Positions 12,835-25,165 are shown, counted from the stretch's first letter. The stretch is DNA of 33,653 nt from Gammaproteobacteria bacterium (GCA_024277575.1 JAJRUX010000111.1:1-33653), one strand, 5' to 3'. Made by a program: numbers and translations. Notes: a model not told the origin generated them from the letters alone.

Positions 12835-14865
12835 TTAACGTAACTCCTGTGCTCCTGGAATGCTTGTGACAGTGCGGGGTTTTCTGTCCAGATGCTGCAC
12901 ATACTGCTCCGTGACGGGATGGCTGCTGCCTACCGACTGCGGCAGAGGTTGCCCCTGGTTGCGGATGGTTGGAATATCTCTGGGGGCAAGTGTTTTGGTA
13001 TCCACAGGCGTTGGTGCACCAGATGTGTCAATCAGATTTCCGGCTCCATTGACGGTTGGCTGTTCGTTTATGTAGGGATAACACTCGGCCTGGGTCTCGG
13101 GGTTTTGCCAGCTGTCTGTAATCCAGTTGATGCCCAGGTTGATGGTGCCACTATCACGACCGAGGCAGAAATGACTGGGTTCAGCGCCAGGTGTTTCACT
13201 GCTGTGATAGATGATGTTGTTGAATACTTCGATAGTCTCCTCTGCCGGGGTGCCGGTGTTCTCGTCGTACAGGTACATATCGAACAGTCTGATCCGCCAA
13301 CTGTCATTCAGATCATTGAGAATGGAGATGGTGTTGTTGTAAAAGTAGAGTGTTCCCTTGCGCGCATATTCCGGATCATTGTCATAACCATAGTGGATCA
13401 GGTTTGATGCACTGGTTTTGCTACCGATATGCCTGATGAAGTTTCCATAAACATAGGTTTTACGGTACCTGGCTTCAGCCGCCTTTACTTTCTGCAGTCG
13501 ATCCGGGTTGATGGCTTCTCCATTTGCTGATGCCCAGTCCCGATAGGCCTGCTCGATATACCAGGGACCCGCATCTTCAACCTCAACCAGATCCAGTACG
13601 CGTGAGCTGCCACTATCAAACCAGTTGTAGCGGATCACCGATCCTGCCACCCGTTCCTTCAACGTTGCGCCATTGGCGCCGGGAGTGTTTGGTCCAAAGT
13701 GGTTGTACTGGTATGTTGCGCCGATTGCCTGGATATACATACTGTGTTCACGATAGCTGCCGGACTGCCCGTTGTCGTGCAGATAGTTTCCTTCGATAAG
13801 AATGTTCCGGGTCAGGCTGGCCTCGTTGTACTCCTGTGACATGGTAAAGATACCGTTTCCGCACTGTTCAATCTCGTTGTTTCTGATTACTACATTATCG
13901 GCAGCCTGTACCCGGATACAGGCTGCACCGTTACCATATGACAGATTGCTCCCCGCCGTATTGGTAAAGCGATATCCATTTCGTGCGCGTTGCAGATGTA
14001 GTCCCTCGATCACAATGTTGGAGGGCTTGAAATCATAATCATTGTCCCAAATGATAATCAGCCCATAAATCTGCATTTCGAGCCAACTGCCGAAAGTGGT
14101 TTTGAGATTTGCCGGGGTGGTGGCATTTTCACCGCTGATGATCGGGCGCTCCCCGTTCGTATTTGGCACGCCACAGATTCGGATCGGCTGCTGCTCCGAG
14201 CCACTTGTGCTGATCAGGATTTTTTCCCGGTAAGGTGTGTCGCGCCAGAAAATGCGAACGGTGTCTCCGGCTCCCAGCGATGGCCAGGGAACATCGGCAA
14301 GATTGGTATAGGGCTGGCCGGGCCCCACGGGATAGTCGTTTCCGGTACCGGCGTGAATACAGGCGCCATCTGAAGCAGCAAAAACATCATCATTCAGGAT
14401 AGAACCGAATGCTGTCGCCGTTTCCAGTGTTGCGTTAGCAGGGTTACTTAGCGTCAGCTTCAGGGTTTCATCACTTTCAACATTCGTGTCGCCCATAATG
14501 GCGACATCCACTGTGGTTGAGGTGCTGCCACTGGGGATATGTGCTGTGCCACGGGTGGTTTTGTAATCGCTTCCTGCCGATGCGGTACTGTCCTCGGTAG
14601 CAAAATCAACGCTGATGTCACGACTGGAGGAGGAGTTCAGGCTGATGGTAAAGGTGAGTTTTTTTGTTCCGTTATCACCCTCACTGATGGATGTTGCGGA
14701 AACGGTGATTGTGGCCAGTGCGATATTATCCTCCTTGACGGTAGTGTCACTGTCTCCATCGTTCAAGTCTTCGATAGAGCTGGAAGTGCTGGTTTGGCAT
14801 GCTGTCAGCGTAGACACCAGAAGAACGGCGGGAATCATCCGAAACAAGAGCAATTTTACATCCAT
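12835..14865 (-). CDS. Predicted lipoprotein: Calx-beta domain plus right-handed parallel beta-helix (pectate-lyase-fold-like) domain
   Basis: Internal start MDVKLLLFRMIPAVLLVSTLTAC with lipobox LTAC (start coordinate approximate). Calx-beta motif (ISEGDNGTKKLTFTISLNSSSSRDISVDFATEDSTASAGSDY...VESDETLKLTLSNPANATL). Beta-helix turns (NVVIRNNEIEQCGNGIFTMSQEYNEASLTRNILIEGNYLHDNG). Confidence 0.82.
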   Translation of the reverse strand: MDVKLLLFRMIPAVLLVSTLTACQTSTSSSIEDLNDGDSDTTVKEDNIALATITVSATSISEGDNGTKKLTFTISLNSSSSRDISVDFATEDSTASAGSDYKTTRGTAHIPSGSTSTTVDVAIMGDTNVESDETLKLTLSNPANATLETATAFGSILNDDVFAASDGACIHAGTGNDYPVGPGQPYTNLADVPWPSLGAGDTVRIFWRDTPYREKILISTSGSEQQPIRICGVPNTNGERPIISGENATTPANLKTTFGSWLEMQIYGLIIIWDNDYDFKPSNIVIEGLHLQRARNGYRFTNTAGSNLSYGNGAACIRVQAADNVVIRNNEIEQCGNGIFTMSQEYNEASLTRNILIEGNYLHDNGQSGSYREHSMYIQAIGATYQYNHFGPNTPGANGATLKERVAGSVIRYNWFDSGSSRVLDLVEVEDAGPWYIEQAYRDWASANGEAINPDRLQKVKAAEARYRKTYVYGNFIRHIGSKTSASNLIHYGYDNDPEYARKGTLYFYNNTISILNDLNDSWRIRLFDMYLYDENTGTPAEETIEVFNNIIYHSSETPGAEPSHFCLGRDSGTINLGINWITDSWQNPETQAECYPYINEQPTVNGAGNLIDTSGAPTPVDTKTLAPRDIPTIRNQGQPLPQSVGSSHPVTEQYVQHLDRKPRTVTSIPGAQELR

Positions 14866-15112
14866 GTTATTCACCTGAGAAGAAATTAACAGAAACTGAT
14901 TTTTAAGTGGCGACTGTACAGGCAGCAGCAGCATCTATTCCGTGAAGGAGTTCTCAATACTGGAATTAAGTGCTTTGACAGAAGGGGGTTAAGGAATATC
15001 AACTTGTTGAAACAACGTGTTTTTTGCTCGGATTTGTTCTTCTGTGTGGCCTTGTGATACCAGAACCATCTGAAATGGAACAGCGGGATGATACAGAAAA
15101 TGACTGCTCAGA

Positions 15113-15138
15113 AGAAAAAAGGTGGGGCAGGCCCACCT
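15113..15138 (-). terminator. Rho-independent terminator downstream of the second beta-helix gene
   Basis: Minus strand aggtgggcctgccccaccttttttc: GC-rich stem followed by a T-run. Confidence 0.75.
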
Positions 15139-15181
15139 GTTTGCATGCCGCCGATATTACCCCAATCAGCCGTTGGTTACG

Positions 15182-17155
15182 TCAGGGCAACTCTACGGCA
15201 CCAAGATTATTCGTTGATGGACGGAGTTCCGGCGTTTGATGTCGTACATACTGATATTTTACCGGATGGCTGTTGTTGACCGCCCCTGGCAGGGGCTGGC
15301 TGTGATTGCGAATGGTCGGGATATCATTGGGGGCGAGCGTCTTGATATCGATAGGCGCGGCTGCCTTTGCGGTGTCGACCAGATTTTGTGCTCCGTTAAA
15401 GACAGGCTTGGTATCATAAGGGTAACATTCGGAGAAGGTATCTGCGCTGTTCCAGCTGGATGTAATCCAGTTGACACCCAGGTTGATGGTGCCGCTCTCC
15501 CTGCCGATACAAAGATAACTGGGGGTTGCCTTTGGCGTTTCACTGACAAGATAGATGATGTTGTTGAACGCCTCGATTGTTTCCTCTCCCGGAGTGCCTT
15601 TGCTTTCGTTATAGAGAGAGACATCAAATATGCGAACTCGCCATTGGTCGTCCCGATCATGCCGTATCATCAGCGTATTGTTATAGGAGTAGAGTGTCCC
15701 TTTTCGCGCCAGCTCCGGGTCATTGTCATAACCATAGTGAATCAGGTTTGAGCCGGCTTCACTACCGATATTCAAAAATTGATTGCCATAAACGTAGGTC
15801 TTTCGGTAACGGGCCTCTGTAGCCCTAACATCTGCCAACCGGTCGGGATCAGGCGCCGAACCTTCCAGGCTGTTCAGATAGGCCTTTTCAACAAACCAGG
15901 GGGCGCTGTCTTCCACTTCGACCAAGTCGACTGTTCGGGAGCCGCCCTCGAACCAGTTGTAGCGGATGACGGTTCCGGCGCTACGGTCCTTGAGGTTTGT
16001 TCCAATCGACCCTGGAATATTGGGGCCAAAACGGTTGTACTGATAGACTGCTCCGATAGCCTGAATGTAGAGATTGTGCTGTCTGCCACTGCCGGACTGT
16101 CCGTTGTCATGCAGGTAGTTTCCTTCAATGAGAATATTGCGCGTCAGGCTGGCTTCATTATACTCCTGTGACATGGTGAAGATGCCGTTTCCGCACTGTT
16201 CAATCTCGTTATTCCTGATCACCACGTTATCGGCCGCCTGCAGGCGGATGCAGGCAGCACCGTCTCGGTAATTTCTTTTCTCACCACGGGTATTGGTGAA
16301 GCTGTACTCTTTGTGTGCACGTTTCAGATGCAATCCGTCGATGATGATGTTCGCAGGTTTCTCGTCATAGTTGCCGGAAAGAATTATCAGCCCCAAACCC
16401 TGAAAATTATCATGGTCATTGGAGAAATAGTTATCCAGATTTCCCAGCCGTGGCCGTGTCGTTGCATTTTGTCCACTTATTGTCGGACGTTTGCCGTTAC
16501 TACCGGCGACACCGCAGATCCGGATCGGTTGTTGTCTGGTTCCCCGAGTGCTAATCAGAATTTTTTCCCGATAAGGGGTATTTCTCCAGAAGATCCGTAC
16601 CGTGTCGCCTGGTTTGAGGGATGACCAGGGAATCTGGGACAAGCTGGAGTGTTTTTGTCCCGGCCCTACAGGATAGTAAGTCCCCTTGCCGGAGGGAATG
16701 CAGGGTTTGGGACTTCCGGGGGACGGGGTATCGTCATTGTGAATTGTGCCGGTAGCCCTGGCTGTCCCCAGCTTGGCGTTGACAGGATTGGTTAATGTCA
16801 GGTTGATGATTTCATCGCTTTCAACATCGGTATCGCCCGAGACGGCGATGCTTATCGTGGTTGATTTGCTGTTTGCCGGGATGGTTATTCTGTCGGTAAC
16901 GGGGCGATAGTCCTCATTTGCCTTGGCGGTTCCATCGGATGTGGTATCGTCAACATGGATCTCTTTACTGGAGGGGGGGGTTAAGTCAGCGGGAAAAACG
17001 AGGTTTGTTGTGCCGTCATTACCTTCTGTAACCATTGCGCTGGATACATTGATGATGGACAGGTCATTGCGCACAGAATGGTTTCCACAACCAGCCAGCA
17101 GCAGTAAAAATACAGAAATTATGACGATGCGGACAGGATGTGACTTGGCAAACAT
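15182..17155 (-). CDS. Predicted lipoprotein: Calx-beta plus parallel beta-helix, paralog of 12835-14865
   Basis: Start chosen at MFAKSHPVRIVIISVFLLLLAGC (lipobox LAGC). Shares long identical blocks with the upstream paralog, such as NNEIEQCGNGIFTMSQEYNEASLTRNILIEGNYLHDNGQSGS. Confidence 0.84.
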   Translation of the reverse strand: MFAKSHPVRIVIISVFLLLLAGCGNHSVRNDLSIINVSSAMVTEGNDGTTNLVFPADLTPPSSKEIHVDDTTSDGTAKANEDYRPVTDRITIPANSKSTTISIAVSGDTDVESDEIINLTLTNPVNAKLGTARATGTIHNDDTPSPGSPKPCIPSGKGTYYPVGPGQKHSSLSQIPWSSLKPGDTVRIFWRNTPYREKILISTRGTRQQPIRICGVAGSNGKRPTISGQNATTRPRLGNLDNYFSNDHDNFQGLGLIILSGNYDEKPANIIIDGLHLKRAHKEYSFTNTRGEKRNYRDGAACIRLQAADNVVIRNNEIEQCGNGIFTMSQEYNEASLTRNILIEGNYLHDNGQSGSGRQHNLYIQAIGAVYQYNRFGPNIPGSIGTNLKDRSAGTVIRYNWFEGGSRTVDLVEVEDSAPWFVEKAYLNSLEGSAPDPDRLADVRATEARYRKTYVYGNQFLNIGSEAGSNLIHYGYDNDPELARKGTLYSYNNTLMIRHDRDDQWRVRIFDVSLYNESKGTPGEETIEAFNNIIYLVSETPKATPSYLCIGRESGTINLGVNWITSSWNSADTFSECYPYDTKPVFNGAQNLVDTAKAAAPIDIKTLAPNDIPTIRNHSQPLPGAVNNSHPVKYQYVRHQTPELRPSTNNLGAVELP

Positions 17156-17174
17156 GACGTTTTCCTTCTGTCTT

Positions 17175-17461
17175 TTATTAACCCGGCAACAATATAGATC
17201 GTGTTCAGCCGGTGTGTGAGCGCCTGCGGCAAGGCGGCAGAACGCCGCTGTAGCACCCCCTACAGCAAGTTTTGCCAACGCAGTCCGCAGGCGCTCACAC
17301 ACCGGCCTATCCTTTTCTATCATAGAGTTAGGGGCTTCAGGTATGCGCTGGCCCGGCGTTGCAGTACTTGGCAAGGGAATAACCATTGTCTGCGTGTCGC
17401 GCCTTGTTCCGGCCCATGCCTGAAGCCCTGAATACGACATATATTGTTGTCGGGTTAATAA
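17175..17461. mobile_element. MITE-like non-autonomous element, copy 1 (full-length form)
   Basis: TIRs ttattaacccggcaacaatata (17175-17196) and tatattgttgtcgggttaataa (17440-17461), 21/22 matching. Internal perfect 21-bp inverted repeat ccggtgtgtgagcgcctgcgg (17209-17229)/ccgcaggcgctcacacaccgg (17285-17305). Second inverted repeat gggcttcaggtatg (17332-17345)/catgcctgaagccc (17415-17428). Confidence 0.72.
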
Positions 17462-17714
17462 CAACCGGGAACCGGGACAAGGTGGCTCCAGGGGATAGCG
17501 CAACCAGAAAATCAGAAATAATCGCGGATAATTATATAGTAAAGCAGGTGATGTTTCAGAAATGCTTTTCAACAGCCTGTTAAAGTAGTGTGCTCTGTTC
17601 CGAACATTTGCAGACAGCTGAATGTTGAGCTGTTGTTGCATGGGCGCTCCAAGAGCTCTCCTTGAAAGTAAGAAAAAAATGGGGTGTTCGACAAGTGGGT
17701 TTATCTCTACGGTT

Positions 17715-18884
17715 CTATCGTCGTTTCAGCATTTTTCGCGCTTTTTTGTCCAGCCCGGTTTTGACCAGTAGTCCGGAAACAGAAATGTACAATCTTGATA
17801 GAGCAAGCTGTGCCAACATGGCGAGATGCATTTTTGAATGGTTTCGTACCACTCCCGTGTTGTCGGCTTCATAGCTATAGTTGCCAAATATCTGCTTGTA
17901 GGTGTTTTCTCCATACCCGAAATCAAGTATTTCCGGTCGGTCTGAGTTGTGCAGATCTTCAATCATAAGATAGGTCAAGACAGTGCCTGGGCTCAGATGG
18001 CTCCATTCCTGATCATAGCCGATATATTCATAGTAGTAGCGCCCTTCGTACTGATAGCCGATGATATAGGCTGCCGGTTTTTCCGAGCAACTCAACAGAT
18101 AGCAGCGCAGCCAGCCCAGTTGGGCAACAGATTGATGATAGGCGATATTTTTCGGTGTGGCATGCCGGTGCGGGCCATAAGTATTTCTCTGCCAGCAGCG
18201 CTCATAGACATAATCGACAGCGATCATGAATGCTTCCACCTGGCCAGGGTGGGTGATTTTTTCCATGCGATAGTTTCCATCCACAGCATCGCTCAAAATT
18301 CGCACATTGCGATTGAGGTTATAGCGTTTTTTCTTGCGGAAGGTGGATAGATACTCGGAGAAACTGCTACTGGTATGAAGGCCGCGGACCACATTTCTTT
18401 TAGCACTGAAAGGGTAGATTTTATAGCCTGGAAGCGGGTTTTTCAGAGTATACAAGGGAGAGTTGTAGGCCAGGCTCTCCATGTAGATGAGGTCATATTC
18501 TTTTTGCCGTTCACGCAGTGCAGACGAAAGTGCATTCAGACATGCCAGCTGATCCGCCTGCCTGGAAAAAATCAGGCAGGTACCATAGAGTTTGTACTGG
18601 CGTATCGATAACTTCCAGAGGTTGATTATCCCAAGGCTCAGATTGAACTCACTCTGCATCAGGAAAAATGGAGCGATACAGCACAATACTCCATTTTTTC
18701 TAATCAAAAATATGCGTATTCGGGTTTCTGTATAAACATGCTTCAGAAGCAGATGAATATTGTCAGGGTTTTGGTGAAACTCGTGTGTTGGAACCTCACG
18801 CAGAAGATTTTTCCACTCGTCTCTGGTGGCAATCAGCTCTTCCTCCGATTTAACTAGATCGACGGTGTACATTCCATGCTCCAA
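17715..18884 (-). CDS. FemAB-like/GNAT-fold acyltransferase (Acetyltransf_6, BioF2-like)
   Basis: EYLSTFRKKKRYNLNRNVRIL...AFMIAVDYVYERCWQRN...PAAYIIGYQYEGRYYYEYIGYDQEWSHLSPGTVLTYLMIEDLHNSDRPEILDFGYGENTYKQIFGN. Confidence 0.85.
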   Translation of the reverse strand: MEHGMYTVDLVKSEEELIATRDEWKNLLREVPTHEFHQNPDNIHLLLKHVYTETRIRIFLIRKNGVLCCIAPFFLMQSEFNLSLGIINLWKLSIRQYKLYGTCLIFSRQADQLACLNALSSALRERQKEYDLIYMESLAYNSPLYTLKNPLPGYKIYPFSAKRNVVRGLHTSSSFSEYLSTFRKKKRYNLNRNVRILSDAVDGNYRMEKITHPGQVEAFMIAVDYVYERCWQRNTYGPHRHATPKNIAYHQSVAQLGWLRCYLLSCSEKPAAYIIGYQYEGRYYYEYIGYDQEWSHLSPGTVLTYLMIEDLHNSDRPEILDFGYGENTYKQIFGNYSYEADNTGVVRNHSKMHLAMLAQLALSRLYISVSGLLVKTGLDKKARKMLKRR

Positions 18885-18887
18885 GAT

Positions 18888-20261
18888 TCAACGCTGAGCC
18901 GGGGCGCAGGGGATCCCTGATATTTTTTTTGCATCCTGGTTGTTACAGGAGTAGCCGATTGCGCCAAGGGGTTGTCCGCTCTTGCTGTCTATCGCATCGG
19001 ATGTTTTTGTTAGTTGAAAGTTAAAACTGGCCAGCTCTGTAAAGCCTGGGTCTGAGCTCTCTATAGAGGTGCCATCATCATCAATCTTGCCGTTGAAGCT
19101 CCAGTGGCGTGAGGTAATCCAGGATGGTTTTAGCCAGTTGTGACTCATACGGACCCGGCCGGATCTGTCAATAAGTGCCAGTCGGTTTCCTCGGCCTGTG
19201 ACATAGAGAATGTTGTGATGAATATTTGCCTGTTCTTCATTTGTGGATAGCCGTAACAGGGTGGTGTTGCCGCTTCGTAATGAAACCAGTGTATTATTAT
19301 AAAAATGAAGTGTTCCCTTGCGGTACTGTGTTATAGCTCCGCTATCACCGCCGTAGTGGATCACCTGGTTATTTCCACCATCTCTTTTTATCAACACATT
19401 TCCATAAATAAAAGTTTCATCATACCGGGGGTGATTGACAATATTCAGGCTGTCTTCACCATCCACCAGATCCAGCAAGCGGTTACCCCCGTCGATCCAG
19501 TTGTAGCGAACCGTCAATCCTGCCGAGCGATCTTTCAGGTTATTGCCTCCCGCATTTTTACGGAGGGGGCCAAATCGGTTGTGCTGGTAGGTGATGTTGA
19601 TTGCTGCGCTGTAGGCGTTATGCTCATAAATACGCCCGGCGTTACCATTGCTGTGGATGTAGTTATTTTCGATGACTATGTTCTTTGTTCCACCATCATC
19701 AGCGGCGATGAAAAGGCCGTTTCCGGAATCATGCAGCTCGCAGTTCCGTATGATCAGATTGGCCGCCTTTTCCACGAATATACTTGCGGCATGGTTGGTA
19801 TAGGCTGTGCTACGGCCCCGTTCGTCAATAAATTGGTAAGGTGGACGGGCGGAGCGGATCTCCAGATTTTCAATAATCAGGTGAGAGGGAACATTATCCG
19901 GTCGTGTTTCGGTCCCACCTATTTTGACTAGTGCTCTTTCTCCATTCCAGGAGGTGGGTCGGGGTGCCGTGATAGCGTTACGCCCATCGATCACCGGGCG
20001 CTGACCATCCGGTCCCGGAACTCCGGAAACCGTAATTGGACTTTGTGCTGTACCGATGCCGTTTATAGTCCATTTTTCCCTGTATGGCTGTTTTCGCCAG
20101 TGAATGTAGATATGGTCACCAGCGGCCAGCCTCTCCCACGGAACCGCGCCAATGGTCTTGTGCTTCTGCTCCGGGCCGACATGATAGTCGGTTGCGGCAA
20201 CAGTAGCAGGGAGGGCGAAAAGCCATAGGAAAAGCATCGTTTCCCTGTGAGTCTGTTTCAC
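18888..20261 (-). CDS. Secreted parallel beta-helix protein, third paralog, without Calx-beta domain or lipobox
   Basis: Sec-type signal peptide (MLFLWLFALPATVAA). ATDYHVGPEQKHKTIGAVPWERLAAGDHIYIHWRKQPYREKWTI aligns with the YPVGPGQKHSSLSQIPWSSLKPGDTVRIFWRNTPYREKILI region of the other two. Confidence 0.85.
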   Translation of the reverse strand: MKQTHRETMLFLWLFALPATVAATDYHVGPEQKHKTIGAVPWERLAAGDHIYIHWRKQPYREKWTINGIGTAQSPITVSGVPGPDGQRPVIDGRNAITAPRPTSWNGERALVKIGGTETRPDNVPSHLIIENLEIRSARPPYQFIDERGRSTAYTNHAASIFVEKAANLIIRNCELHDSGNGLFIAADDGGTKNIVIENNYIHSNGNAGRIYEHNAYSAAINITYQHNRFGPLRKNAGGNNLKDRSAGLTVRYNWIDGGNRLLDLVDGEDSLNIVNHPRYDETFIYGNVLIKRDGGNNQVIHYGGDSGAITQYRKGTLHFYNNTLVSLRSGNTTLLRLSTNEEQANIHHNILYVTGRGNRLALIDRSGRVRMSHNWLKPSWITSRHWSFNGKIDDDGTSIESSDPGFTELASFNFQLTKTSDAIDSKSGQPLGAIGYSCNNQDAKKISGIPCAPAQR

Positions 20262-20633
20262 GTCGGGAATGATATCCCAAGGCCGGATTTTTATCCAGAC
20301 CGACTGGAGGCTACTTGAAGTGATTAATCCGGTTAGTGCTTACGGAAATTTTGTTATTGGTGGTTGCAATCCATAGTGCATCGGATTTATATTTAAGCCA
20401 AGATGTTCGCACCTGTGATATGGAATGGGTATAAATGGACTTGGAGATATCTTTTGACTTCTGATTGTTTTTTTCCCGCACACATTAGTTCCCCCTCCTG
20501 TTTGACTATTCCCCCTGGTTCCATTTAGGGTTCAGGCGCCTGGTGCACGCCGCAGAGAGTACCGGATGAAAACGGTGTTGTTCTATTATTTCCCTGTTCT
20601 GCAAGACCTGTTCTTGCCCGGGAGGGTTGCGCC

Positions 20634-21308
20634 ATGAGTTTCGTTCGTCAGGCAATCAGGGTTTCCTGCAGGGCGGTTGTTCCACGGCGTATGTTTTTAA
20701 CGGAGGGTCCTTCCTCAACCAGACAGGGTGGATCTCACCACCATGGCGCTGAGATTGCGTTAACTTTTGATGATGGTCCTGACCCTGAGACTACGCCGGG
20801 GCTTCTGGAACTGCTGGAAAAATGGCACATATCCGCAACCTTCTTTTTGATTGGTGAAAAGGCCGCACGTTATCGCGATATTGTTTATCAGATTGTTGCT
20901 GCGGGGCATGGCCTGGGTAATCACTCATATACTCATTCAGAACCAAACCAGACTTCAACAACCCGGTTCCTTGATGAGATTCGCAAGACGCGTGATCTGC
21001 TGGAGGAGATCAGCAATCAGCCCTGCACGCTGGTGCGTCCTCCCAAGGGAACATTGACTACCGGCAAGCAGCTTGGACTGTGGAAGCAGCGAATGACCAT
21101 TGCTCTGTGGAACACCGATCCGCGGGATTACCAGATGCGGTCGCAGCAGCAGGCGGCGGAGTGGGGTGCGGCATATCAGCCCTGTGGGGGAGATATCGTG
21201 CTATTGCATGACAATCACCCCTGGGCGAGCCATATTGTTCAGGCTCTTGCAACTAACAGCGACCAGGCAAGTCATGTCACTTATGTCCGGCTTTCGGAGT
21301 GGGTGTAA
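20634..21308 (+). CDS. NodB-type polysaccharide deacetylase
   Basis: IALTFDDGPDPETTPGLLELLEKWHISATFFLIGEKA; GLGNHSYTHS; VRPPKGTL; DIVLLHDNH. Confidence 0.93.
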   Translation: MSFVRQAIRVSCRAVVPRRMFLTEGPSSTRQGGSHHHGAEIALTFDDGPDPETTPGLLELLEKWHISATFFLIGEKAARYRDIVYQIVAAGHGLGNHSYTHSEPNQTSTTRFLDEIRKTRDLLEEISNQPCTLVRPPKGTLTTGKQLGLWKQRMTIALWNTDPRDYQMRSQQQAAEWGAAYQPCGGDIVLLHDNHPWASHIVQALATNSDQASHVTYVRLSEWV

Positions 21309-21310
21309 CG

Positions 21311-22738
21311 ATGTCGGTTGTTGACCACAAAACGGAAAAGGCCACCCGGCGGAGGGTGTTGTTCATCTGCTATCTTTTTCCGCCGGTTGGGGGCGCCGGT
21401 GTGCAGCGTCCGGCCAAGTTCGTCAAGTATCTTCAGCGGTTCGGTTGGGACGTTACGGTATTGACCGTTGAAAATCCATCGGTTCCCGTGTTTGATGAGA
21501 GCCTGCTTGGAGATATCCCGGATGCTACTGTGATTCACAGGGTGCGAACCCTTGAACCCGGTTATCAGTTCAAAGCCGGGCTGGCCAGGCCGGATGGCGT
21601 AGCGTACTCTTCGGAGCAGAGGAAAGAGAAGGCTGTATCTGTCCTGCAGGGAGCAAAGAGAGTATTGCGGAGCGTGGCCGGAACCATCCTTCAGCCTGAT
21701 CCACAAATCCTCTGGTTTCCCGCTGCGTACAGGAAGGCGATGGAGGTGTTGCGTACCACCCCGCACGACATTATTTTTGCTACTGCGCCCCCTTATTCCG
21801 GTTTTTTGCTGGGTAGTTGGCTCAAACGAAAGACCGGATTGCCGCTTGTACTTGACTATCGTGATGAGTGGGATCTCAGCAGTGCCTATCTGGAGAACAG
21901 CAAACGGGATCGGATCTCGCTTTTTATCCAGAAGAGGATGCAGTGCAATATTCTGCGTTCAGCAAATGGTTTGATTGCTACTACCAAAGCGAGCACCCGG
22001 CGAGTGGTTGAGCGCGCGAGCGAGTTTGGCGTGGATCTACCCGGGATCTGTATTTATAACGGTTTTGATGATGCTGATTTTAGCGCTATCCGAAATCACA
22101 GTACGGAAAAACAGCCAAATGGCAGGCTGCGAATCGTGTATACCGGGACATTGTGGAACCTGACCACCGTCGAGCCGCTGGTAAAGGCAATCATGCAACT
22201 TTCGAAGCACCAGCCGGAACTGATGAAGAAACTTCAACTGGTGTTTATTGGGCGAAAGATGTCGCATCAGCTGGCCCTGCTGGAGAAGCTCCAGGGCACA
22301 GGTTGTCAGCTGGATATTCGGGATTACTGCGAACACGAACAAGCACTTTCCCTGATGGATTCGGCAGATGTACTCTGTTTATTGTTGAGTGATGTTGATG
22401 GGGCGGAGCGGGTTGTCCCCGCCAAACTGTTCGAGTACCTTGCCATGCGCAAGGAGATCCTGGCGATAACCCCAAAAGGGGAAACTGCCGATATTGTTAC
22501 CCGCTATTTTTCGAACAACCACTTTAACGGTAATGACGTTTCCGGTATTGCCGCGTGGATACAGAAACGGCTTGACTCCCCGGAAAACAGTTTTGTTCGG
22601 GAACAGAAACGGATTGACTCCCGGATAGATATCTCGGAGTTTAGCCGGGAGTCTCAGGCGAGACAGTTGAGCAAATATTTTGCGCAATTCGTACCTGGAA
22701 CTGCTCATGTGGCCGGAAAGCGTTTCGGTTTTGGTTAA
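21311..22738 (+). CDS. Glycosyltransferase, GT4-like
   Basis: RVLFICYLFPPVGGAGVQRPAKFVKYLQRFGWDVTVLTV...RIVYTGTLWNLTTVEPLVKAI...RVVPAKLFEYLAMRKEILAI. Confidence 0.88.
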   Translation: MSVVDHKTEKATRRRVLFICYLFPPVGGAGVQRPAKFVKYLQRFGWDVTVLTVENPSVPVFDESLLGDIPDATVIHRVRTLEPGYQFKAGLARPDGVAYSSEQRKEKAVSVLQGAKRVLRSVAGTILQPDPQILWFPAAYRKAMEVLRTTPHDIIFATAPPYSGFLLGSWLKRKTGLPLVLDYRDEWDLSSAYLENSKRDRISLFIQKRMQCNILRSANGLIATTKASTRRVVERASEFGVDLPGICIYNGFDDADFSAIRNHSTEKQPNGRLRIVYTGTLWNLTTVEPLVKAIMQLSKHQPELMKKLQLVFIGRKMSHQLALLEKLQGTGCQLDIRDYCEHEQALSLMDSADVLCLLLSDVDGAERVVPAKLFEYLAMRKEILAITPKGETADIVTRYFSNNHFNGNDVSGIAAWIQKRLDSPENSFVREQKRIDSRIDISEFSRESQARQLSKYFAQFVPGTAHVAGKRFGFG

Positions 22739-22798
22739 TAGCAGAGAAACCTGGAGCGGAAAAATGACAATTTGTTCTTTGCATGGGAAAAATTCTGG

Positions 22799-23494
22799 AT
22801 GATCAGTGCACTGCAGAAAGGGGCTCAGCGTGGTTTTGAGGTGCTGGTTGAAAAGGGCCCTCGGCACACTATCAACTGGTTCCGTTATCATTTCTATGAA
22901 CGTTACCGTGAGTGGAGTCTAGGCATAGAAACAGCAGGCTATGGGGGATGGGGCAGGGCCAGTGAGGATTCACCGGATAACAATGTTTATGAACCGATTT
23001 GCTATGATTGCCTGGACAGGGCGCTTGCTTTATTAAAGATAGAGCCGGGGAAAGAGATTCTTCTGGATTATGGTTCAGGCAAGGGGCGAATTGTTACGGT
23101 TGCAGCGACCCATCCGTTTCGAGAGGTGATTGGAGTTGAGCTGTTACCTGAACTGGTCGAAATTGCACGGGATAATGTTCGGCGGGCGTATGGCAAGCTA
23201 AAGTGCAAAAAAATAAATATTATTGCAACTGATGTCACGACATTTTCGGTTCCTGCTGATGTTTCTGTTTTTTTCTTTTTCAACCCCTTTACCGGGGAGA
23301 TCATGAAGGCGGCTCAGCAGCATATTCGCCGTTCGTTGGAGCAGTATCCACGAAAGATCCGAATTGTTTACATGAATCCCCTTTCTGAACCGGATCCCTT
23401 TCAGGATTGCAGCTGGCTCGAAAAATCAGAAGAGATTTCCCCTGGCTGGTGGCAAGGGATGCGTTTTGTTATCTATAGTAACAATAACGACTAA
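22799..23494 (+). CDS. Class I SAM-dependent methyltransferase
   Basis: ILLDYGSGKGRIVTVAATHPFREVIGVELLPELVEIARDN (motif I/II). Confidence 0.82.
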   Translation: MISALQKGAQRGFEVLVEKGPRHTINWFRYHFYERYREWSLGIETAGYGGWGRASEDSPDNNVYEPICYDCLDRALALLKIEPGKEILLDYGSGKGRIVTVAATHPFREVIGVELLPELVEIARDNVRRAYGKLKCKKINIIATDVTTFSVPADVSVFFFFNPFTGEIMKAAQQHIRRSLEQYPRKIRIVYMNPLSEPDPFQDCSWLEKSEEISPGWWQGMRFVIYSNNND

Positions 23495-23509
23495 CACTGT
23501 TTATACAGT

Positions 23510-23532
23510 AGCTCTGTCGAGCTGAATTTTTT
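23510..23532. terminator. Possible terminator between convergent genes
   Basis: agctc-tgtc-gagct-gaattttttt; short stem with T-run. Confidence 0.4.
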
Positions 23533-23540
23533 TGCTTTCA

Positions 23541-24620
23541 TCAAGATGATAGTTTTGGGTTCAGTCTCTCCTTGTGCTGGTGGCTGTTCAAATCGACGAA
23601 GGTAGGGGGCGCTACCATTGACGAGAATATTCGAGGAAGAATGATACCGGCCTTATAAACAGATAGATTCTGTTCCGGGCCTACCCTCCTTATATCGAAA
23701 GGATCGGAGATGTTTTCGATATTGGAACCCGTATTAAACGAAAATCCCAAGTGATATCCCGCTTTTTTGGCATTTTTCTTTGTTCTTTCAGAGAAAGCGT
23801 GATATCCACCCACCGGGTAGGCGATGGATCTGATTTCACAAGAGAGTTTTTTTTGAAGAAATTTTCTGGAATCCTCCAACTCTTTCAGCTCTTCTTCGCC
23901 ATTGATGGTAGAGAGGACGCGATGGGAAACCGTATGTGAACCGATGCTAAGGTGCTCTGAACTTGCAATCTCTTTTATCTGATCCCAGCTCATCAACTCC
24001 TTCTCCTGAATGGACCGGGAAGGGAACTCCACGCCGCAAAGCCCCGATAACCGGCTCAATAGATTTTTTGATTCTTCATGTTTTGCTGATTTCATATAAG
24101 CCAGCAGGTGCTGCTTTGCCATCTCCCGATCACCCCGGGTATGCAGGAGAATGGGTTGTTCATTAAATGAAATCTGCTCTTTTTCAGTATGATTAATGAA
24201 ATAAGAGATAATGTCCCACCATCCCAGCATCGATTTTTCGATACTATCTGTGGGGATAAAGAAGATGGCGGGTATGTGGTATTTTTTTAGTATTGGAACT
24301 GCCAGCTGGTGGTTGTCTCGATAGCCGTCATCGAAAGTAACCAATGCGTTTCGTCCGGAAAACGATTTTCCTGTACGGGCCAGATGTGCGATATCTTGTT
24401 CGGATACCAGGTTAACATGCTTTCTCAGGAAGGACATCTGATGCTCAAATTCAGTTACCGACGGACCAAATACGTGGGCATCGAACTCCGTATCCAGCTT
24501 GTTTGCATAGATCCTGTGGTAGTTTATTATTGTCAATGAATTATCTGGAATGTTGCGGATAATATTGAGTAGACGGCTTTTTTCAAGAAATCCAGCCAGA
24601 ACTCTCTTTTTCCCCTTCAT
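23541..24620 (-). CDS. Polysaccharide deacetylase family protein
   Basis: LTIINYHRI, ALVTFDDGYRDNHQLAVPILKKYHIPAIFFIPTD, LSIGSHTVSHRVLS, SIAYPVGGY. Start chosen at MKGKKRVLAGFLEK because the longer ORF runs into a repeat element. Confidence 0.88.
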   Translation of the reverse strand: MKGKKRVLAGFLEKSRLLNIIRNIPDNSLTIINYHRIYANKLDTEFDAHVFGPSVTEFEHQMSFLRKHVNLVSEQDIAHLARTGKSFSGRNALVTFDDGYRDNHQLAVPILKKYHIPAIFFIPTDSIEKSMLGWWDIISYFINHTEKEQISFNEQPILLHTRGDREMAKQHLLAYMKSAKHEESKNLLSRLSGLCGVEFPSRSIQEKELMSWDQIKEIASSEHLSIGSHTVSHRVLSTINGEEELKELEDSRKFLQKKLSCEIRSIAYPVGGYHAFSERTKKNAKKAGYHLGFSFNTGSNIENISDPFDIRRVGPEQNLSVYKAGIILPRIFSSMVAPPTFVDLNSHQHKERLNPKLSS

Positions 24621-24770
24621 GTTCTCCCCCCGGGAACCGTTCATATATTCGTATGCAAATCCGATGGGTGAATGTGTACCATCCGGACCAAGCAATTGAT
24701 TTTGAATGCTGTTGAAAGTGTAATATACCCTGTCACGGCCGGAATTTGAAGAATGGTTGACACAATATTG

Positions 24771-24902
24771 ACCCGGCAACAATATAGATCGCATTCAGGG
24801 CTTCAGGCATGGGCTGGAACAAGGCGCAGCACGCAGGCAAGGGTTGTTCCCTTGCCGCAAACCGGCACACGATAGCTGATACGATCTATATTGTTGCCGG
24901 GT
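24771..24902. mobile_element. MITE-like element, copy 2 (inverted, internally deleted form)
   Basis: Perfect 21-bp TIRs acccggcaacaatatagatcg (24771-24791)/cgatctatattgttgccgggt (24882-24902). The interior cagggcttcaggcatgggctggaacaaggcgc is the reverse complement (1 mismatch) of the copy 1 right arm. Confidence 0.75.
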
Positions 24903-25165
24903 TAATAACTGATTTTATCTGAGTTGAAGTGCGATGGTTCCCCGGCTTTTCAGCCTCCGTCCGCCAGCCAGTTTATTGACCTGAATGGGGCCTTCCTGAG
25001 TGATGTTTTCTCAAATAATTGTTGGAAGAATGAGACGTTGCGGATACCCTTTCATATAAGTTCCTGCCTGACACGGACGCCTGATTTTTGTATTATGCTC
25101 TTACCTGTTCATTATTGCGCCCGACCAGAGATAATCACGCAGCCGATACACGGAGGATCGTACTG

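Follow-up and report, generated by a model that had tools for sequence, protein, structure and literature searches.

Fold-conserved, MITE-like elements inserted independently in a gammaproteobacterial surface-polysaccharide locus

Introduction

What defines a MITE is its kinship to a transposon with the same terminal inverted repeats (TIRs). Integron attC sites are conserved in structure and variable in sequence, and the ITRs of the parvovirus AAV form a stem with two small arms in a Y or T shape; both features recur in the elements described here. Transposons of the IS630/Tc1-mariner family are not known to carry subterminal arms. REPs are 20–40 bp long, carry a GTAG/CGTC tag and make no target duplication (PMC2817692, PMC3116915).

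We analysed a stretch of 33,653 nucleotides (the window), which is contig 69 of the 2.4-Mb draft genome of a gammaproteobacterium (GCA_024277575.1 JAJRUX010000111.1:1-33653). The original prediction, made from the sequence, had placed in it two oppositely oriented copies of a hairpin-rich, MITE-like element bracketing about 7.6 kb of a surface-polysaccharide locus, and had proposed that the pair could mark a mobilised cassette or permit inversion.

Results

The two copies in the window

Both hairpin-rich repeats are real, as judged from an inverted-repeat search, a 19-mer count and fold z-scores. Copy 1 has 34-nt TIRs (17175–17208 and 17428–17461, 88% complementary) with two hairpins inside, and copy 2 has TIRs at 24766–24794 and 24879–24907 (93% complementary). 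The 19-mer CCCGGCAACAATATAGATC, the core of the TIR, matched the window four times at up to three mismatches against 0.02 matches expected, and the foldback strength was far above chance for copy 1 (z = -13.0) and copy 2 (z = -8.5). With the limits set by the TA on each side, copy 1 is a full-length element of 281 bp and copy 2 measures 138 bp. The features are as follows, minus denoting for copy 1 the strand with arm A first; the TA rule comes from the flanks of copies in a complete genome, G132.

17176–17177, no strand: left TA target duplication of copy 1 (sequence and TA rule)
17178–17458, minus: copy 1, full-length 281-bp element
17178–17208, plus: left TIR of copy 1, terminating in the junction motif TTCAG (inverted-repeat search and fold)
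17208–17306, plus: arm B of copy 1 (fold, covariation and model match at 17216–17298, plus)
17307–17331, no strand: inter-arm spacer of copy 1 (fold)
17332–17428, minus: arm A of copy 1 (model match at 17340–17420, minus, 75.8 bits; covariation)
17428–17458, minus: right TIR of copy 1 (inverted-repeat search)
17459–17460, no strand: right TA target duplication of copy 1 (sequence)
24766–24767, no strand: TA target duplication of copy 2, one side (sequence)
24768–24905, minus: copy 2, 138-bp internal-deletion derivative of the C177/C130 subfamily (inverted repeats, fold and alignment)
24849–24856, minus: deletion joint of copy 2, GGCAAGGG (overlap between two aligned blocks)
24906–24907, no strand: TA target duplication of copy 2, other side (sequence)

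Arm B of copy 1 consists, in order, of an outer stem, a CAAGGC/CAACGC internal loop, an inner stem, a GCCG/CAAG internal loop and the apical hairpin CTGTAG..CTACAG. Arm A follows the same plan in the opposite orientation, with an apical hairpin of the GGTTATTCCC type. Copy 2 folds as a single foldback without a three-way junction and matches the arm model weakly (24806–24883, 27.8 bits). It had been taken for an inverted copy of copy 1 that had lost the central hairpin. Copy 2 is closest to the full-length C177/C130 subfamily (98.9% identity over 91 nt) and shares just 88% with copy 1; it therefore belongs to another subfamily. What it lost was not simply the central hairpin: a deletion of about 130 nt between two GGCAAGG repeats removed half of each arm together with the spacer, so that the 5' half of arm B is fused to the 3' half of arm A.

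Gene order around the insertions

The gene names assigned to the locus (GNAT, beta-helix, deacetylases, GT and methyltransferase) agree with Pfam. In the congener G003, the beta-helix, GNAT, deacetylase 1 and GT genes lie on C37, and methyltransferase 1, deacetylase 2, GNAT 2 and the epimerase lie on C31, in both cases in the order of the window. The same holds for the congener G006 (C36 and C147); order and orientation are kept apart from genes private to one genome. At both orthologous junctions in G003 and G006, the arm model found no match, and both sites are unoccupied in these congeners.

Because the gene order across both boundaries is ancestral in the congeners, the two elements are separate insertions, and because these boundaries exist without the copies, inversion or mobilisation of the segment as a unit is rejected. 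Copy 1 and copy 2 are independent insertions of different subfamilies. The suggestion that 17.2–24.9 kb is a cassette or an invertible segment drew on the spacing of 7.6 kb and the opposite orientation of the copies, and it could also appeal to comparable element pairs enclosing a gene at L122 and L123. Against the ancestral order in congeners devoid of the copies and the different subfamilies of the two copies, we regard it as extremely improbable. The pairs at L122 (832–2482) and L123 (270–1777), about 1.4 kb apart around single genes, could themselves represent composite carriage.

Some further features of the window may be recorded here. The minus-strand genes at 15182–17641 and 23541–24794 have spuriously lengthened frames with the elements sitting at their 5' ends; their likely starts are 17155 and about 24620. 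Three beta-helix paralogs occupy 12835–20261 (Pfam Beta_helix, with Calx-beta in the second), the third of which sits between GNAT and deacetylase 1 in the window and is absent from that position in G003 and G006. Positions 3–1478 encode cadherin-like tandem repeats (DADGDTLSVSGADARSAQGGTVVNNGNGTFTYTPPAGF...) with a terminal membrane anchor, adjoined by flagellar genes.

Further copies in the genome and the genus

Dozens more copies were found in the same genome. BLAST with copy 1 returned 118 pieces, including five further full-length copies at 80–89% identity, and the TIR pattern matched 62 times as opposed to 0 for the reversed control, with TIR pairs spaced 93–275 bp apart and clustering at 267–275 bp. 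All seven congeners (7/7) carry full-length or partial copies; in four representatives of other genera within the family, BLAST detected no copies. The MITE-like nature proposed in the original prediction is borne out by the many copies, the TIRs, the TA target duplication, the empty sites in relatives and the lack of coding capacity, and the occurrence of both further copies and empty sites favours mobility.

Several copies are unusual in arrangement. One full-length copy (L008 1501–1786, on contig C71 of the same genome) has arm A flipped relative to all other copies, which indicates that the palindromic arms are able to invert. Another, on contig 119 (L002, about 1485–1809), is inserted into a terminator-like palindrome (GAAAAGCCACACCAGC...GGTTGGTGTGGCTTTTT), whose loop it occupies. 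At L066 (1462–1884), a CCCGG-type element sits within a shorter CTAGTACTCTTTCAAGG repeat, the TIR of which also serves, in another genome (L127), to close an element with a three-way junction.

Mobility and target duplication

The complete, single-contig genome G132 contains 22 TIR pairs of the CTAAGACAAACG family, always spaced 262–263 bp apart, and the copies compared are mostly 98–100% identical. TA...TA flanks were present at 17 of the 20 copies checked, and the three exceptions adjoin another repeat. Two copies are nested in the TIR of a sister element, which provides an empty-site comparison: the flanks of L185 joined with one TA (..catattTAgttgccggg) differ at a single position from the uninterrupted L177 (..catattTGgttgccggg). 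Since joining the flanks with a single TA restores the host length, the target duplication is 2 bp, TA. The elements are shown to be mobile, non-autonomous, TA-duplicating, gene-less and structurally conserved, and in at least one complete genome they have amplified recently.

By crude ORF calling, 20 recent insertions in G132 lie between tandem genes (7), between divergent genes (6), inside an ORF (5) or between convergent genes (2). The convergent context of only 2 of 20 argues against a role as terminator.

A three-way junction with two covarying arms

All full-length copies fold according to one plan, in which a TIR stem with TTCAG/CTGAA at its inner end closes a three-way junction with two arms. 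Each arm of about 97 nt comprises an outer stem of about 20 bp, a CAAGG(C)/(C)AACG loop, an inner stem of 7–8 bp, a GCMG/CAAG loop and an apical hairpin, which is GGCAAKGG..CCMTTGCC in arm A and GCTGTAG..CTACAGC in arm B. As the two arms are mutually inverted, CAAGGC...AACGC is read in the first arm whichever end of the element one starts from.

The unpaired motifs CAAGGC/AACGC and GCMG/CAAG are conserved, while the surrounding stem sequences vary with compensation. In the alignment of 27 arm A sequences, 89.7% of cells are paired, 171 cells are double-changed as compared with 51 after shuffling (0/500), and covariation scores 0.606, a value that drops to at most 0.142 with the partners slid. 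The 17 arm B sequences gave 0.456, against at most 0.104 slid. For 129 distinct arms from many genomes, with an alignment fitted to the structure, unlike those of the 27 and 17 sequences, 91.0% of cells were paired, double changes numbered 1121 where 286 were expected, and the score was 0.767, against at most 0.101 slid. Kinship weakens the shuffle control, whereas the slid control preserves it. Neutral palindrome correction would not be expected to leave conserved unpaired motifs amid stems that vary freely.

Occurrence and diversity of the terminal repeats

The arm A covariance model (E <= 1e-5) matched 99 of 369 Gammaproteobacteria genomes, covering 78 of 271 genera, and 64 of 398 genomes of a phylum-wide sample. 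The positives in the latter include one non-gammaproteobacterial family with many genomes, several of which have at least eight matches. Matches with a named host come from one plasmid each of Azotobacter chroococcum and Pseudomonas aeruginosa, from a Halomonas replicon, and from MAGs assigned to Sedimenticola and other Gammaproteobacteria. The TIRs of different element families are unrelated, for example CTAGTGTCC, CTAGTACTC, CTAAGACAAACG and GGGAANNNCTGCACG, or TTAACCCGGCAACAATATAG, CTAGTGTCCCTTAACAG, CTAGTACTCTTTCAAGG, CTAGTGTACTGCGCC, CTAAGACAAACGATAAC and GGGAANNNCTGCACGA. Within one class, the architecture has been retained across no fewer than 78 genera, although almost all paired letters changed.

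BLAST found no match to the elements in phages, and no close relatives of copy 1 or the G132 family in plasmids. Rfam 15 had no family in the window at the gathering score, and permissive scans of the elements gave chance-level microRNA models only. We found no earlier description in Rfam 15 or in the open-licence literature searched; subscription journals may contain one.

Matched terminal repeats and G.U pairs

In G278 and G371, two complete genomes of the same genus, the outer TIR is hypervariable among copies, and left and right match within each copy. Left equals right in 140 of the 150 outer cells that vary, where shuffling gives 112.6, and the triplet after GGGAA, which occurs in six variants, is the same on both sides in 12 of 15 copies; agreement is lower close to the junction (61/90). 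Independent mutation of the two TIRs would not produce such matching. We infer that the element passes through a folded intermediate that allows either TIR to be templated or corrected by its partner; few independent events lie behind the matches. Co-evolution with several transposases is an alternative.

With each arm read in its own orientation, G.U exceeded A.C by 170:33 (raw) in the outer and inner stems and by 64:36 (p=0.007) in the outer stem with related arms collapsed. Since the raw excess of about 5:1 fell so far upon collapsing kin, we use it as support only; moreover, the covariance model behind the arm set carries RNA priors, which weakens the G.U reading. The excess is present in both arms of the same element (63:12 and 51:12). 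This pattern misfits a single transcript and is suggestive of separate folding of each 5'-terminal strand, which it would fit.

Search for the mover

An autonomous version with the same TIRs, for which the original prediction had suggested a search, was found neither in the complete G132, where no TIR pair is spaced widely enough for a transposase gene, nor in the genome of the window, which has only a DDE_3 fragment. The element works like a MITE; a parent transposon, found in neither genome, may lie in others.

DDE_3 (IS630) is missing from 13 of 16 element-bearing genomes, including G278 and G371. IS630 copies were found in G132, G207 and G331, the TIR of the G132 copy being different from that of the elements. 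Over 369 genomes, elements and IS630 are independent (26 with both, 73 with elements only, 66 with IS630 only, 204 with neither; OR 1.10, p=0.79), which makes IS630 an unlikely partner. The corresponding counts for the Y1 transposase are 83, 16, 151 and 119 (OR 4.1, p=4e-7, uncorrected for phylogeny and genome size). Of 40 Y1 loci, almost all taken from element-positive genomes, two clearly had a full element nearby, and a bracketing of Y1 genes in the RAYT/REP style was not seen. G371 carries copies of the element and neither IS630 nor Y1. The pairs at L122 and L123 were also considered as an autonomous partner; the enclosed ORFs encode a membrane protein and a pentapeptide-repeat-like protein, which are not transposases.

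Discussion

The most probable explanation, to which we assign a probability of roughly 0.6, is a non-autonomous, TA-specific element that inserted independently at each site and is mobilised in trans by a mover that probably reads its fold. The machinery for this mobilisation would be encoded elsewhere, as suggested by the complete G132, in which none of the 22 near-identical copies is accompanied by an autonomous element sharing their TIRs. The conservation of the fold and the internal-loop motifs, but not of the TIR sequence, suggests that the fold is what the mover recognises. The mover or an accessory protein might bind the folded arms in the form of extruded or single-stranded DNA, with one arm per transposon end, and passage through a folded strand could allow one TIR to template or correct the other, giving the matched TIRs. 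Some observations weigh against this explanation. TA duplication and CTAG-like ends are products of IS630/Tc1-mariner, and such transposases could come from outside; template switching can homogenise palindromes neutrally; the G.U excess is modest after removal of kinship, and came from a covariance model with RNA priors; and some element-rich genomes such as G371 have neither IS630 nor Y1. A bolder form is possible and held only tentatively: the elements might constitute a new kind of mobile element, whose machinery reads the folded three-way-junction shape with its two motif-bearing arms instead of a fixed terminal sequence, so that TIRs and stems drift in compensated pairs, and one mover or mover lineage could act across Pseudomonadota.

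The elements might alternatively be ordinary IS630/Tc1-mariner MITEs, internal-deletion derivatives of IS630-type transposons that have been lost in part, whose palindromes are kept by neutral quasi-palindrome correction and whose fold is irrelevant to movement. The TA duplication, the CTAG-type targets, a size and copy number typical of MITEs, and the presence of IS630 in G132, G207 and G331 would all agree with this. We nevertheless consider it rather unlikely, because IS630 occurs independently of the elements and is lacking in the element-rich, complete G278 and G371, because the IS630 of G132 has another TIR and no autonomous copy accompanies it there, and because neutral correction would wipe out the unpaired stem motifs, which persist across families.

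A readthrough-transcribed RNA could instead be the selected molecule, its arms affecting termination, stability or processing in the manner of NEMIS/Correia or ERIC elements. Strong covariation and a G.U excess are typical of structured RNA, but the excess occurs in both arms, each on its own, opposite strand, which a single transcript cannot explain; with no Rfam family and few convergent contexts, the RNA explanation appears improbable. We judge similarly poor the prospects of a Y1 (HUH, RAYT/IS200-like) transposase as the mover, as proposed for TnpA-REP with REP/REPIN hairpins. Y1 enzymes read imperfect single-stranded hairpins, and Y1 co-occurs with the elements, but that association is uncorrected, a full element lies near just two of the 40 Y1 loci, and G371 has copies without Y1. 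Moreover, IS200/IS605 and REP movement involves no target duplication or need for TIRs, whereas the elements have a TA duplication and long TIRs.

If the fold is indeed what is read, a structure-reading recombinase would be indicated, and non-autonomous elements should be sought by structure and not by sequence. G132 offers a testable system, since its sequence is complete and its 22 copies are nearly identical, with no autonomous version among them.

Among known systems, the resemblance to AAV ITRs is one of shape only, as the elements have no replication protein or linear genome. Unlike attC sites, they showed no RYYYAAC/GTTRRRY core sites at the arm ends (arms read by eye) and form no cassette arrays. 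They share the TA target duplication with IS630/Tc1-mariner, and several element families also share a CTAG-like target, but no cognate transposase and no co-occurrence were found. REP/REPIN with RAYT (PMC2817692, PMC3116915) resemble them in the inverted pair of imperfect hairpins, the high copy number, a mover located elsewhere and the co-occurrence with Y1; the elements differ in their arms of about 97 nt inside long TIRs, the CAAGGC/AACGC motif, the TA duplication and the lack of a flanked Y1 gene. In organisation the elements resemble MITEs, for example QMITE1 and QMITE2 of Coxiella (PMC5896051), which are likewise non-coding, 100–400 bp long and foldback-forming, with TIRs, a short target duplication (TA in the present elements) and many intergenic copies. 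The TIR-sharing transposon by which MITEs are defined was not found here, and the fold and loop motifs are common to families without shared TIR or stem sequence. MITEs are usually recognised by sequence kinship to one transposon, and elements conserved in their fold depart from that.
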